DNA from: Niastella vici
Lineage (GTDB): Bacteria > Bacteroidota > Bacteroidia > Chitinophagales > Chitinophagaceae
Direction: 5' to 3'
DNA length: 64,000 bases
Assembly (NCBI RefSeq): GCF_002077945.1
Contig: NZ_LVYD01000013.1
Span: 124,001 to 188,000 of the forward strand
In this document: positions 15,948 through 20,727 of the stretch, one piece after another
How positions within the stretch are numbered: the first letter of the stretch is position 1
Layout of the letters: each line of letters starts with the position of its first letter
Translations under genes and position numbers: made by a program
Notes under the pieces: model-generated
What the model saw: only the letters and a program-made list of their open reading frames with translations
Databases searched by the model: none
What the model was told of the DNA's origin: nothing

Positions 15948-18689
15948 TTACACATCATACTCAAGTACCGGGCGCAACCATCTTTCCACTTCTTCAAGCG
16001 GCATATTTTTACGGTTGGCATAATCAACCACCTGGTCTTTCTGAATTTTACCTAATCCAAAATACTGGCTTTGCGGATGGGCAAAATACCAACCGCAAAT
16101 GGAGGAGGCAGGATACATGGCCAGCGACTCAGTGAGTGTAATGCCGGTTGCCTGCTCACCGCCCAGCAGATTGAATAGTTTATACTTCTCAGTATGATCA
16201 GGACAGGCCGGGTAACCTGGCGCTGGTCTGATACCTGAATATGATTCCTTAATTAATTCTTCATTCGTTAACTGCTCATCTTTGGTATATCCCCAGAATT
16301 CTTTCCGCACACGTTCATGCAACAGTTCAGCAAATGCTTCGGCAAGCCTGTCTGCTAACACCTGTAACATGATTTTGTTGTAATCGTCGTGATTTTCGAT
16401 GAACTTTTTTAAATGAGGCTCTATTCCCTGTATAGTAACAGCGAAAGCGCCTATGTAATCGGTGGCTTCGCCACTTTTTCCATCGGCTGCATTGGCCACC
16501 GGTTTTACAAAATCGGCCAAAGAGAAGTTGGGCTGTCCTTCGGCTTTTTTCAATTGCTGGCGTAAAGATTCAAGCCTGGTATTCACTTTCCCGCTTTCAT
16601 CGTATAAAAATATGGAATCTTTACCATCGCCATTGGCAGGCCAGAAACCTATGACCCCGCGGGCTGTTAACCATTTTTCATCAATGATCTTTTTAAGCAG
16701 GTCATTGGCGTCGTTAAACAGTTTGGTAGCTTCTGTTCCTACTTTTTCATCTTTCAAAATAGCAGGGAATTTACCATGCAGTTCCCAGGCTATAAAGAAC
16801 GGACCCCAGTCGATATAGTTGGTAAGCTCACTGAGGTTATAATTATCGAATATTTTAGTACCGGTGAATTGTGGAACCGGCGGTGTATAGCTGTTCCAGT
16901 CAATGGCTACTTTGTTTTGCTGGGCCTTTTCAAAGGGAAGAAATTGCTTGGCGGTCTTCTTGCTGCCAAAATCATCGCGCAGCTTTTGGTATTCTTTGCC
17001 AATATTGACCAGGAAATCAGGTTTCTGTTCCTTACTTAGTAAGGAGCCGGCCACAGTAACACTGCGCGAAGCATCCAGCACATGCACCACTCCGTTGTCG
17101 TATTGTGGGGCAATTTTTACTGCGGTGTGCATGCGTGAGGTGGTAGCGCCGCCAATAAGCAATGGCTGGTTCATGTTACGGCGTTTCATTTCATGGGCAA
17201 CATGCACCATTTCATCGAGCGAAGGCGTAATAAGGCCGCTTAAGCCAATGATGTCTACCTTTTCTTTTTGTGCTGTTTCGAGGATCTTGTCTGCCGGCAC
17301 CATTACACCCAGGTCAATAATATCGTAGCCATTACAGCCTAATACAACGCCTACAATGTTTTTTCCGATGTCGTGCACATCGCCTTTCACGGTAGCCAGC
17401 AGTATCCTGGCGGCGCCTGAAGAAACGGCGGCACCTTCATTGCCAGATGCATTACGCAACTTTTCTTTTTCAGCTTCAATATAGGGGGTAAGAATGGCCA
17501 CTGATTTTTTCATAACCCGCGCACTTTTCACTACCTGCGGCAGGAACATTTTACCACTGCCAAACAGATCGCCCACCACGTTCATTCCGTTCATTAAAGG
17601 CCCTTCAATAACATCAAGGGGTTTGGGGTACTTTTGACGGGCTTCTTCTGTATCCTGGTCTATATAGTCTGTAATACCGTTTATCAGCGCATGTTTCAAC
17701 CGCTCTTCAACAGAGTTACTGCGCCAGGCTTCATTCTTAACTTCAGATTTGTCTTTTGCTTTTACCGTTTCGGCAAAGACGATCAGGCGGTCGGTGGCGT
17801 CTTCGCGGCGGTTCTGAATAACATCTTCGCATAGCTCGCGCAATTGCGGTTCTATTTCATCATACACGATCAGCTGACCGGCATTTACGATACCCATATC
17901 CATACCGGCTTTAATGGCATGGTACAGAAAAACGGCATGCATGGCCTCACGTACAGGCTCATTACCGCGGAAAGAGAAAGAAATATTACTAACTCCGCCG
18001 CTTATTTTGGCGAGGGGCATTCTTTGTTTTATGATGCGGGTAGCTTCAATAAAATCAATCGCATAGTTGTTGTGCTCTTCAATACCGGTGGCTACGGCAA
18101 ATATGTTGGGGTCGAAGATGATGTCCTGCGGATCATAGCCTACCTGCTCTGTCAAAATCTTATAGGCGGCTGTACAAATATCTACCCGGCGTTGCAGGGT
18201 ATCGGCCTGGCCTTTTTCATCAAATGCCATTACAACAACAGAGGCGCCGTACAGCTTACAGATATTTGCTTCGCGAATGAACTTTTCAACCCCTTCTTTC
18301 ATGGAAATGGAGTTCACAATACACTTTCCCTGCACACATTTTAAGCCCGCTTCAATGATCTCGAATTTTGAGCTGTCGATCATGATGGGGATCTTGGCAA
18401 TATCCGGTTCGCTTTGCAGCAGGTTCAGGAAGGTGGTCATGGCCTTTACCCCATCGAGCAGGGCATCATCCATATTTACATCAAGTACCTGGGCGCCGCT
18501 TTCTACCTGCTGGCGGGCTACGCTCAATGCTTCTTCATACTTGTTCTCCCTGATAAGGCGGGCAAATTTCTTTGAACCGGTTACGTTGGTGCGTTCCCCC
18601 ACATTCACAAAGTTGGTTTCGGGGCGAATGACCAGGGGTTCTAAACCCGAGAGTCGCAAATATGGTTTTATCGTTGTGTTAGCTGACAT
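15948..18689 (-). CDS. metH: Methionine synthase, pterin/B12/activation part
   Basis: 913 residues from the ATG at 18689 ([19 protein letters not shown]). Domains in order: pterin-binding TIM barrel ([21 protein letters not shown], then [11 protein letters not shown]), cobalamin cap ([28 protein letters not shown], ~360-400), cobalamin-binding Rossmann domain with the DxHxxG ligand motif (GDVHDIGKN, His439), and the C-terminal AdoMet activation domain ([33 protein letters not shown]). It lacks the N-terminal homocysteine-binding barrel, which is encoded separately at 19482-20510. Together they equal the ~1230-residue MetH that moves the methyl group from methyl-THF to homocysteine. Confidence 0.95.
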
Positions 18690-18696
18690 GCCTTGT

Positions 18697-19260
18697 TTAC
18701 TTTTTGGGAATCTTAAACCCAATTGGTTCCCGGGCAGGCGGTGGTTCCTGCACCAGTAATTCCTTTAATATTTTAAAAATGGTCTGTATCTCTTCGTCTT
18801 TTTTAACCAGGTTCTTTTCAATGGACTCAATCTTCTTCCTTAAGTCTTCATTGTCAAGGTTATTCAATAAGAACTGCCGTAACCTGGTATATACTCTAAT
18901 GATCTGAATATTAACCTGAATGGCTATTTCCGAATTCAGTACGCTCGATAACATGGCTACGCCCTGTTCGGTGAAGGCATAAGGCAATTTTCTGATACCG
19001 CCCCATTCTTTTGTGCCATCCGCTGAACTTGAAGTCACAAATTGTGACTTCAAGTTTTTGAACTCTTCCGCTGTAAGCTGAAACATAAAGTCCGGCGGAA
19101 ACCGGGTAATATTTCGTTTTATAGCCTGATTCAAATGTTTGGTTGGCACACCGTACATCTTTGCCAGGTCACTGTCTAACATCACCTTTTGTCCGCGAAT
19201 GATACGAATACAGTCGATAATGTCTTGATCTGCAATGGCGTTGATCAGTTTTTCACTCAT
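18697..19260 (-). CDS. ORF6N-domain protein
   Basis: 187 residues. Residues 18-110 match the ORF6N domain, a DNA-binding module known from phage and bacterial proteins: [61 protein letters not shown]. The C-terminal part is a coiled coil ([26 protein letters not shown]). It sits between the two metH genes, 7 bp before the metH C-part. Codons 69-79 ([11 protein letters not shown]) contain a 31-bp perfect palindrome (19026-19056) of the same family as four intergenic ones just upstream. A role as regulator of these sites is inference. Confidence 0.8.
19026..19056. repeat. Palindrome inside the ORF6N gene
   Basis: AACTTGAAGTCACAA (19026-19040), a central A, and its exact inverse complement (19042-19056). 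It shares the core TCACAA-W-TTGTGA with the upstream intergenic set. Confidence 0.85.
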
Positions 19261-19316
19261 AAGTAGTTTGTTTAATGGTTTACATTAAAGAGTTACTACT
19301 ACCAGAGCTGATCCTG

Positions 19317-19472
19317 TTTGATATCGCAATTTGCGATATCAAACATTCCTGTTGCCATCTTGAGGTCACAATTTGTGACCTCAAAATTTGGATCTATTTC
19401 AAACTTGATATCACAATTTGTGATATCAAGTTTCCTGTTATTAATGTTTGAAGTCGCAATTTGCGACTTCAG
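19317..19472. repeat. Cluster of four perfect palindromes upstream of the ORF6N gene
   Basis: Four odd-length palindromes with 11-16 bp arms around one central T: 19317-19343 (TTTGATATCGCAA arms), 19360-19384 (TTGAGGTCACAA), 19401-19433 (AAACTTGATATCACAA) and 19450-19472 (TGAAGTCGCAA). All share the core [GAC]TC[AG]CAA-T-TTG[CT]GA. They fill the region between metH N-part and the ORF6N gene. A plus-strand ORF across them (repeating SQFVTS) is an artefact of the palindromes. Confidence 0.9.
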
Positions 19473-19481
19473 GTTTATAGC

Positions 19482-20510
19482 CTATAACGTCGCTTCCAAA
19501 ACCGGTAAGGGTCTTGGTTTGAACTGACGAACGTGGTCGGCAATATGTTTTATATGATCGGGCGTGGTTCCGCAGCACCCGCCTACAATATTTACAAATC
19601 CTTCGCGGGCCCATTCTTCAAGGAAATGGGCGGTTTGTTCGGGTTGTTCATCGTATTCACCCATGGCATTGGGTAAGCCCGCATTGGGGTATGCCGAGGT
19701 AAAGCAGGAGGCGATCTGGCTTAATTCTTCAATATGTGGCCGCATTTCCGAAGCGCCTAACGCACAGTTGAGGCCAATGGAAAGCGGTTTGGCATGCATA
19801 ACAGAAGTATAAAAGGCTTCCAGTGTTTGTCCGCTCAGGGTGCGGCCCGATGCATCGGTAATGGTACCGCTGATCATGATGGGCAATGCTTCCCTGCCAA
19901 TATCGTTGAAATATTTTTTGATAGCGTAAATGGCGGCCTTGGCGTTGAGGGTATCGAAAATGGTTTCGATCAGCAACAGGTCAACCCCGCCATCGACCAG
20001 GCCTTTTACCTGTTCGTAATAGGCGCTCATGGCTTCATCGAATGTAAGGGCCCTGAAACCAGGGTTGTTTACATCGGGCGATAAAGAGAGTGTTTTATTG
20101 AGCGGACCAATAGCCCCGGCTACAAAAGCCCGTTCCCGCCCATTTTTATTGGTGGCCGGGTCGGCAAAGAATTCCTGAACCGCTTCTTTGGCAATTTTAG
20201 CTGCTTCGAAGTTCAGCTCATAAGCCAGGGGTTCCATATGGTAATCGGCCAATGAAATGCGCTGTGCATTGAACGTATTGGTTTCAATGATGTCGGCGCC
20301 GGCTTCAAGGTATAATTTATGGATGCCTTTGATGATGTTTGGCTGTGTAAGGCATAAAAGGTCGTTATTGCCTTTAAGGTCGCTGGCCCAGTCCTTAAAA
20401 CGTTCGCCGCGGTAATCGGCTTCTTCAAGCTTGTGCCGTTGGATCATGGTTCCCATAGCACCATCAATGATCAGGATGCGTTCCTGCAGGCATTGTTGTA
20501 TTGATTTCAT
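19482..20510 (-). CDS. metH: Methionine synthase, homocysteine-binding part
   Basis: 342 residues from the ATG at 20510 ([24 protein letters not shown]), which is preceded by a strong ribosome-binding site AGGAGG; an upstream in-frame start is less likely. It is a homocysteine S-methyltransferase TIM barrel with the zinc cysteines in GLNCALGA (~Cys239) and [11 protein letters not shown] near the C-terminus, plus [11 protein letters not shown] and [15 protein letters not shown]. It provides the N-terminal barrel missing from the 913-residue partner. A 216-nt leader with its own promoter precedes it. Confidence 0.93.
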
Positions 20511-20727
20511 GCTGCCCTCCTTTTGTTTAGCATAGCGGTTTATGTTGATGAGCATTAACAGGACTGGCGCAATACAGAACTGGTAAACGTTGGGAAACTG
20601 TGTAGAGAGAGTTTCTTGTCGTTTATTAGTTCAGTTGCAAGCCTTTGGCCCGAATTGGTTATCAGGACGCCTGGTTCCGGTTCCTGCTCAGGACGCACAG
20701 GCCGAACAATAAACAAATCCGCCTATG
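20511..20727 (-). promoter_or_regulatory. Long structured leader of the metH N-part
   Basis: From the predicted start of transcription to the ATG is ~216 nt with no gene. On the minus strand it contains two related hairpins: TCCT-GAGC-AGGA, and CAGG-CGT-CCTG. The phrase GCGTCCTGA occurs twice, and outer complementary segments GGCC (20699 region) and GGGCC (20646 region) bracket them. A riboswitch or attenuator sensing a methionine-cycle ligand is plausible. I do not recognise a SAM-I, SAM-II or cobalamin core. Confidence 0.45.

Follow-up and report, generated by a model that had tools for sequence, protein, structure and literature searches.

The window analysed here, a stretch of 64,000 nucleotides from Niastella vici, contains a gene for an ORF6N protein of 187 amino acids (18697–19260, minus strand), which is flanked on either side by one part of a split methionine synthase (15948–20555). 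Both neighbouring genes are likewise encoded on the minus strand and comprise the homocysteine S-methyltransferase part upstream (19482–20555) and the pterin-binding/B12/activation part downstream (15948–18722). The ORF6N profile (PF10543) matched residues 18–107 of the protein with 123.2 bits, compared to a curated cut-off of 27.8 (E 5.4e-36). In addition, the protein matches anti-repressor families in PHROGs and, among the PADLOC models, the candidate family PDC-S05 (E 3.3e-58).

The original prediction, made from the sequence of this region, described five odd-length perfect palindromes with the shared core TC[AG]CAA-W-TTG[CT]GA, four of them before the ORF6N gene and one within it. Indeed, all five were found again in the window sequence, with centres at 19041, 19330, 19372, 19417 and 19460 and arms of 15, 15, 12, 16 and 11 bases, respectively, and four of them lie between the start of the ORF6N gene and the stop of the upstream gene (19261–19481). 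The in-gene palindrome, which reads AACTTGAAGTCACAA-A-TTGTGACTTCAAGTT on the plus strand (19026–19056), encodes residues 69–79 and is centred on the first base of the Phe74 codon. It is located at the SQ[IF]V site, where we propose an in-gene palindrome as a feature of the ORF6N family. The upstream palindromes are located at 19315–19345, 19360–19384, 19401–19433 and 19449–19471, the last one ending about 10 nt short of the upstream gene's stop. No other perfect palindrome of odd or even length in the window has arms of at least 10 bases; of 20 block-shuffled windows, 17 contained none and three contained one. Allowing for one mismatch, the core occurs five times in the window compared to 0.63 times expected (sd 0.82, maximum 3), and none of 100 shuffles reached five occurrences.

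The first synthase part is present in all ten genomes of the genus that were searched, including that of the window. At the orthologous places of these genomes, a whole ORF6N gene was found only in the window's genome; the gene is shortened in G002, pieces or remnants are left in G001, G007 and G008 (by eye also in G005 and G006), and no ORF6N gene was seen at this place in G003, G004 and G009. In the complete genome of 10.06 Mb, the exact core occurs at nine places, five of which represent the window locus. The other four comprise a second locus (L002), a terminator-like hairpin (arms of 17 bases and a T run) and two sites with arms of 3 and 7 bases. L002 was recognised as an ORF6N place through neighbours shared with relatives and through a weak remnant match (E 0.054); it is likely an ORF6N remnant locus, in which two palindromes, at around position 1501, are decaying. 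For a wider count we used a 17-base form of the palindrome and 22 chosen genomes, at least 19 of which have an ORF6N match. This form was found at 16 sites in 10 of the 22 genomes, and the reversed control was found at none. Fifteen sites are located within an ORF6N domain match or up to about 260 nt from one, and the sixteenth belongs to what is left of the ORF6N gene at the methionine synthase genes of G001. Thus, palindromes unrelated to ORF6N genes, which would have spoken against the original prediction, did not appear among these 22 genomes.

The in-gene palindrome turned out to be conserved throughout the ORF6N family. We assembled ORF6N genes from 59 genomes of relatives (28 with such a gene), from genomes of the phylum (at least 89 of 296 with one), from 80 GTDB contigs (the best 80 of 587 relatives, with titles from several phyla) and from 45 viral contigs. 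Of the resulting 285 distinct genes, 12 without the anchor motif were left out and 273 were scored; in a smaller set, 27 of 158 rows were left out, as they have no FTE motif. The pairing score was defined as the number of Watson-Crick pairs out of 12, taken at the centre downstream of the FMFQL motif that pairs best. At least 9 pairs were formed in 266 of the 273 genes and at least 10 in 251, whereas control windows of equal size before and after the palindrome reached 10 pairs in 5 and 10 of the same genes, respectively. In 189 of the 266 genes, the best centre follows the motif at a distance of 33 nt, and with the centre fixed at this distance, i.e. without a centre search, at least 10 pairs were still formed in 185 of the 273. 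The palindrome is in phase 0 in 243 of the 266 genes, in phase 1 in 19 and in phase 2 in 4. Since the phase-1 genes read like DNA in another frame, as ELVTNCDRF and not as NLRSQIVTS, the palindromic DNA is kept with a wholly different peptide.

The pairing clearly exceeds what is expected from the composition of the individual columns (252 of 266 genes compared to 99 expected at position 4, and 236 compared to 103 at position 8). When the proteins were recoded with their own codon use and the centre was searched again, at least 10 pairs were reached in 8.6 genes, compared to the 251 observed, and at least 11 pairs in 1.4 genes, compared to 194 observed. At the observed centre, the 243 frame-0 genes formed 2894 of 3159 pairs and their recoded counterparts 1312 (sd 21.5); the corresponding numbers for the 19 frame-1 genes were 215 of 247 and 128 (sd 5.8). 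This is also visible in the choice of the serine codon, which is TCA when the partner codon starts with GT (116 genes) and TCG when it starts with GC (51 genes). Constraint on the protein alone is ruled out by these recoding nulls together with the TetR control described below, and the notion of sites that evolve under pairing, which was part of the original prediction, fits the pairing observed beyond protein and codon constraint.

Paired changes between close relatives are common, e.g. at -7, -4, 0, 4 and 7 between L060 and L108 and in a similar manner between L046 and L060, and unpaired changes occur as well (-8 alone between L134 and L147). Among 49 pairs of genes with at least 80% identity, which are not independent of each other, both arms had changed at 35 pair positions and a single arm at 17. 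The centre base of the 243 frame-0 genes is T in 119, A in 117, C in 4 and G in 3 cases and flips between A and T among orthologues, which could be due to an inversion of the palindrome or to a requirement for A/T. Four genes (L015, L026, L032 and L065) harbour two to three palindrome peptides in frame within one ORF6N gene, which are located 63 nt apart in L026 and L032.

In an AlphaFold2 model of the window protein (mean pLDDT 85.2, pTM 0.67), the codons of the palindrome fall on the end of a helix (residues 64–73) and the start of a low-confidence loop (residues 74–93). The block means of the pLDDT drop to 63 and 60 at residues 71–90, compared to 93–97 before and 93–96 after this segment. 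According to the model, helix 40–49 is a candidate recognition helix. A search by sequence revealed no solved relative at E below 0.05, and a fold search against the PDB returned nothing at E ≤ 0.001, the best matches being Ski/Dachshund followed by MarR- and MerR-type proteins, all of them weak.

The model helix and the covariation between protein and palindrome both point to T40–N50 as the predicted recognition helix (codons at 19111–19143, minus strand), within which the identity of residue 45, a glutamine in the window (19126–19128, minus strand), tracks position 4 of the palindrome. This relation was derived from well-paired genes only, namely 222 genes with sufficiently long flanks and at least 10 of 12 pairs, of which 191 are non-redundant; six rows (L146, L148, L198, L293, L299 and L313) were out of register by the motif anchor. 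Genes with Gln at alignment column 27, which corresponds to Gln45 of the window protein, have A/A at position 4 in 83 of 86 cases, and genes with Glu have G/G in 41 of 43. The association is looser for the basic residues, with C/C in 21 of 28 Lys genes and in only 22 of 33 Arg genes. These combinations can be compared with the usual contacts of Gln with adenine and of Arg or Lys with guanine, the partner of C. Further associations were found for Arg and Gln at column 24, which go along with G/G (42 of 44) and C/C (11 of 11), respectively, and for Lys at column 23 (G/G at position 8 in 80 of 97). Overall, the inner palindrome bases are tied to column 27 with a z score of 45.9, to column 24 with 22.2 and to column 28 with 12.1, compared to a mean of 0.89 for the C-terminal columns. 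The excess mutual information at position 4 amounts to 1.106 bits vs 0.117 bits for the best C-terminal column, and partial Mantel correlations with the palindrome distance were 0.178 for the recognition helix, a value reached by none of 300 permutations, and 0.101 for the C-terminal half, reached by four of them.

The left base of position 4 coincides with a synonymous serine position in the 243 frame-0 genes, a redundant set, in which the serine codon is TCA in 104 of 104 Gln genes and TCG in 46 of 47 Glu genes. For Lys genes we counted 11 TCG and one TCA, and for Arg genes eight AGC, seven TCA and one AGT. In-register frame-1 genes show A/A with Gln (5 of 5) and G/G with Glu (3 of 3), and the code is broken by Arg (A/C in 3 of 3). 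We also compared 72 disjoint pairs of genes with different residues at this column, which are otherwise at least 60% identical; both members fit the code in 61 pairs, one in 10 and none in one; without the seven Lys/Arg pairs, both members fit in 58 of 65. A tree of 77 other columns, which is poorly supported, implies at least 74 residue changes and at least 70 base changes. Restricted to supported branches, a small test with seven Gln/Glu pairs gave 5.8 with and 0 against the code (median p 0.031), and five Arg/Lys pairs gave 4.9 with and 0 against (median p 0.0625).

A comparable arrangement was observed in other families. RhuM genes, which occur in at least 117 of 395 genomes of the phylum, carry a palindrome of another kind, again at a fixed alignment column; of 110 genes collected by profile alignment, 101 form 9 or more of the 12 pairs. 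After leaving out the nine genes with 2–6 pairs, 72 non-redundant genes were retained, in which positions 3–7 are paired in 72, 71, 72, 71 and 72 cases (expected: 40, 26, 24, 34 and 47). Position 4 obeys the helix rule of the ORF6N genes, with G/G in 21 of 21 Glu genes, C/C in 13 of 14 Lys/Arg genes and A/A in 4 of 4 Gln genes, and Lys at column 23 is accompanied by G/G at position 8 in 37 of 37. Positions 10–13 additionally vary with the C-terminal columns 54 and 58, which we take for the split of the family into two subfamilies; trees of the RhuM genes yielded too few independent pairs. KilA-N genes contain an even palindrome (NPDFKPVEFDG), and Bro-N genes contain several palindrome types. 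The best in-gene score was at least 11 in 13 of 22 KilA-N genes (0.3 after recoding), 19 of 29 RhuM genes (0.6) and 14 of 30 Bro-N genes (0.4), and in 0 of 29 TetR genes (0.1), which served as a control. The residue-to-base code was computed for ORF6N and RhuM, and the KilA-N and Bro-N sets comprise 22 and 30 genes. Tentatively, and with some doubt on our side, the four families might represent a 'lock-in-key' superfamily of DNA readers that carry the cognate palindrome in the codons of their own loop at a like place; reader and site would drift through many specificity types serving self-recognition between mobile elements, and a short residue-to-base code would predict the site from the protein.

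Two Bro-N genes (L384 and L385, near position 1422) are preceded by an even palindrome that resembles the KilA-N type, as if the site of one family stood before a gene of another. In the genome of the window, RhuM and Bro-N genes with in-gene palindromes are found on contig C58 (L372, L403), with several palindromes of the RhuM type nearby.

A position-weight scan of 265 ORF6N loci (767 kb) revealed 115 more sites, 15 within the gene and 100 outside, and none in locally shuffled sequence. Seventy-five of the outside sites are located upstream; at 52 of 261 loci, such a site precedes the likely start by up to 300 nt, mostly by 20–80 nt; by another criterion, upstream copies are present at 62 of 254 loci. 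With a near-universal copy in the gene and upstream copies at a minority of loci, the numbers speak against a spread of palindromes into the coding region, which the original prediction had offered as one of two readings. The outside copies pair less strictly, with position 4 paired in 62 of 75 sites compared to 27 expected, and they do not follow the code of the adjacent gene. Upstream sites of Gln genes have G/G in 15, A/A in 14 and other bases in 11 cases, and those of Glu genes G/G in 10, A/A in 3 and others in 5; for the downstream sites, the numbers are 5 G/G, 2 A/A and 1 other for Gln genes and 10 G/G and 5 A/A for Glu genes. The nearest upstream site of Gln genes is G/G in 12 and A/A in only 6 of 24 loci, whereas the in-gene site of those loci is A/A in all 22 that pass the pairing filter, so that promoter-proximal sites with the specificity of the protein were not borne out for these loci. 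The window shows the same mismatch, combining Gln45 and A/A in the gene with G/G, A/A, A/A and G/G at the upstream palindromes, in the order of their coordinates. Extra copies within Gln genes follow the code in 8 of 9 cases; four extra in-gene copies elsewhere have G/G and A/A (Glu), G/G (Lys) and A/C (Arg). The idea that all sites of a locus strictly share their sequence was also rejected, since the own in-gene site scores upstream only slightly above the sites of other genes (mean rank 0.534 in 254 loci and 0.614 in the 62 loci with an upstream match).

From the covariation between helix and site we infer that the ORF6N protein very probably reads the palindrome in its own gene. On this view, the ORF6N protein of the window would have its cognate double-stranded DNA site at 19026–19056 of its own gene, in codons for a tolerant loop within the DNA-binding domain. 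A putative dimer would read each arm with helix T40–N50, whereby Gln45 and the neighbouring residues 41 and 42 would set the bases at positions 4, 5, 7 and 8. The bound protein may block transcription of its own gene from inside, either as a roadblock or by looping to the upstream copies, and would in this way limit its own level, which would be the simplest consequence of binding. That the effect is such a self-brake is a guess, to which we give about an even chance; the explanation as a whole, a cognate site within the gene of its reader with a likely self-brake, is the best one we can offer and is probably correct. Because site and reader are contained in one coding sequence, they would move together by horizontal transfer and shift their specificity together, and the lock seems to be passed on together with its key. 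The autoregulation suggested in the original prediction for a DNA-binding protein beside its own sites is partly supported: the protein seems to read the in-gene palindrome, but autorepression through the promoter sites is unsupported by their specificity. Since these sites mismatch the code, ordinary operator repression is argued against and a role in self-recognition is given room.

Without the brake, the protein could read the in-gene site as a tag of self or kin, be it in immunity between competing mobile elements, as a target of gene conversion or homing or as part of an anti-phage function. We regard this as possible but rather unlikely, although several observations are in line with it: a variety of specificity types exists, with protein and site matched in each single gene, the outside sites mismatch the code, ORF6N genes decay and turn over between species, and the family is both a PADLOC candidate (PDC-S05) and a PHROG anti-repressor. 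In addition, a cluster of tyrosine recombinases is a neighbour in 28 of 280 loci, with one member (L033) confirmed as Phage_integrase and some annotated as integrases, and about 10 of 280 loci are next to genes that read as type I restriction, in agreement with the annotation in a checked case. These neighbours fit with self-recognition among mobile elements; however, most loci have neither of them within the flanks seen (1–1.5 kb). The same recombinase neighbours and the mismatch of the outside sites would also suit a palindrome read by a different protein, e.g. the adjoining recombinase or a host factor. This is very improbable, as the code maps to the helix of the ORF6N protein itself and the in-gene site is near-universal, yet 252 of 280 loci have no neighbour from the recombinase cluster in the flanks seen.

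The remaining explanations dispense with a protein that reads the site. A functionless quasi-palindrome in the codons, kept perfect by hairpin-templated mutation, would account for the frequent change of both arms at once among close relatives (the 35 vs 17 positions in the 49 non-independent pairs), together with the flipped centre base and its split into T and A. It predicts neither the covariation with a helix encoded more than 50 nt away nor the same rule in RhuM and the absence from TetR genes, and the palindromes at the L002 remnant are decaying, yet G001 has kept perfect upstream copies next to a largely deleted gene; altogether, we consider it improbable. A hairpin in the mRNA that controls translation or decay from within the coding region might be read from the stem of 12–15 pairs and from the centre pair, which is free to mismatch as in a loop (194 of 266 Watson-Crick at position 1, 191 expected). 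The stem tolerates G.T no better than A.C, with 35 G.T and T.G compared to 56 A.C and C.A at positions 4–12. Because G.T pairs are not favoured over A.C, an RNA stem is disfavoured to the point that we rejected it, and it would leave the helix code unexplained; its chance of being correct is very slight. Finally, mobile palindromic repeats of the REP type could have spread around and into the gene, as several copies per locus (in 265 loci, 15 additional copies within and 100 outside the gene) might suggest. A dispersed repeat of this kind is largely refuted by the absence of many distant copies, with all 16 sites in the 22 genomes local to ORF6N genes or a remnant, and the in-gene copy sits at a fixed place in most ORF6N genes, which makes this origin hardly credible.

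An in-gene site of the reader itself has some parallels. The O gene of phage lambda contains the origin iterons inside its coding sequence and, like the ORF6N genes, is a gene for a DNA-binding protein that holds the sites of its own product, predicted ones in the case of ORF6N, within its codons. In lambda these sites form a replication origin with several iterons between the domains, whereas the ORF6N genes have one palindrome in the DNA-binding domain itself, spread across families and phyla, and its bases can be read from the helix by a code. Operators within genes are also known from galE (gal OI) and lacZ (lac O2); they too are located in a coding sequence and able to act by looping or as a roadblock, but they lie in the target gene and not in the DNA-binding domain of their own reader. 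REP elements with their RAYT transposases resemble the ORF6N loci in that palindromes accompany a gene whose product may act on them; REPs are dispersed and lie outside genes, whereas the ORF6N palindromes are in-gene and local. Immunity repressors of mycobacteriophages, as outlined in PMC9283540 and PMC6550527, stop transcription elongation at dispersed stoperators and fall into immunity groups, which are comparable to the specificity types described here; stoperators are numerous across the phage genome and, in the account of PMC9283540, asymmetric, whereas the ORF6N sites are symmetric and confined to the gene and its flanks. In PMC8263062, a neighbouring gene is identified as Bro-N, and the semi-palindromic iterons belong to another protein. 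The PADLOC family PDC-S05, according to which ORF6N proteins are candidates for an anti-phage role, and the PHROG anti-repressors comprise the same protein family, and these labels are silent on an in-gene site. We found no report of an in-gene cognate palindrome among the titles and abstract openings listed in searches of the open literature.

ORF6N and RhuM genes are common in the phylum, and to our knowledge only few of their targets are known. If the proposed reading is true, the in-gene cognate site would hand a target to every member of these families at once, and the specificity code for position 4 (Gln-A, Glu-G, Lys/Arg-C) would become testable. It would also provide a clear example of amino acids that are determined by a DNA site and not by the function of the protein.

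Some ORF6N proteins are long (about 300 amino acids) and have a common C-terminal part (L019, L056, L058, L097, L115 and L139). The assumption that these long forms end in a phospholipase-D-like domain was not borne out, as L019 has no C-terminal Pfam match. Regarding the genomic context, some ORF6N genes stand next to restriction-type genes, and a genus-specific ORF6N type beside a tyrosine recombinase recurs at several places (L024, L025, L033, L175, L180 and L185). When the parts of this type were aligned separately, the ORF6N part was about 94–97% identical and the recombinase part about 83–88%.
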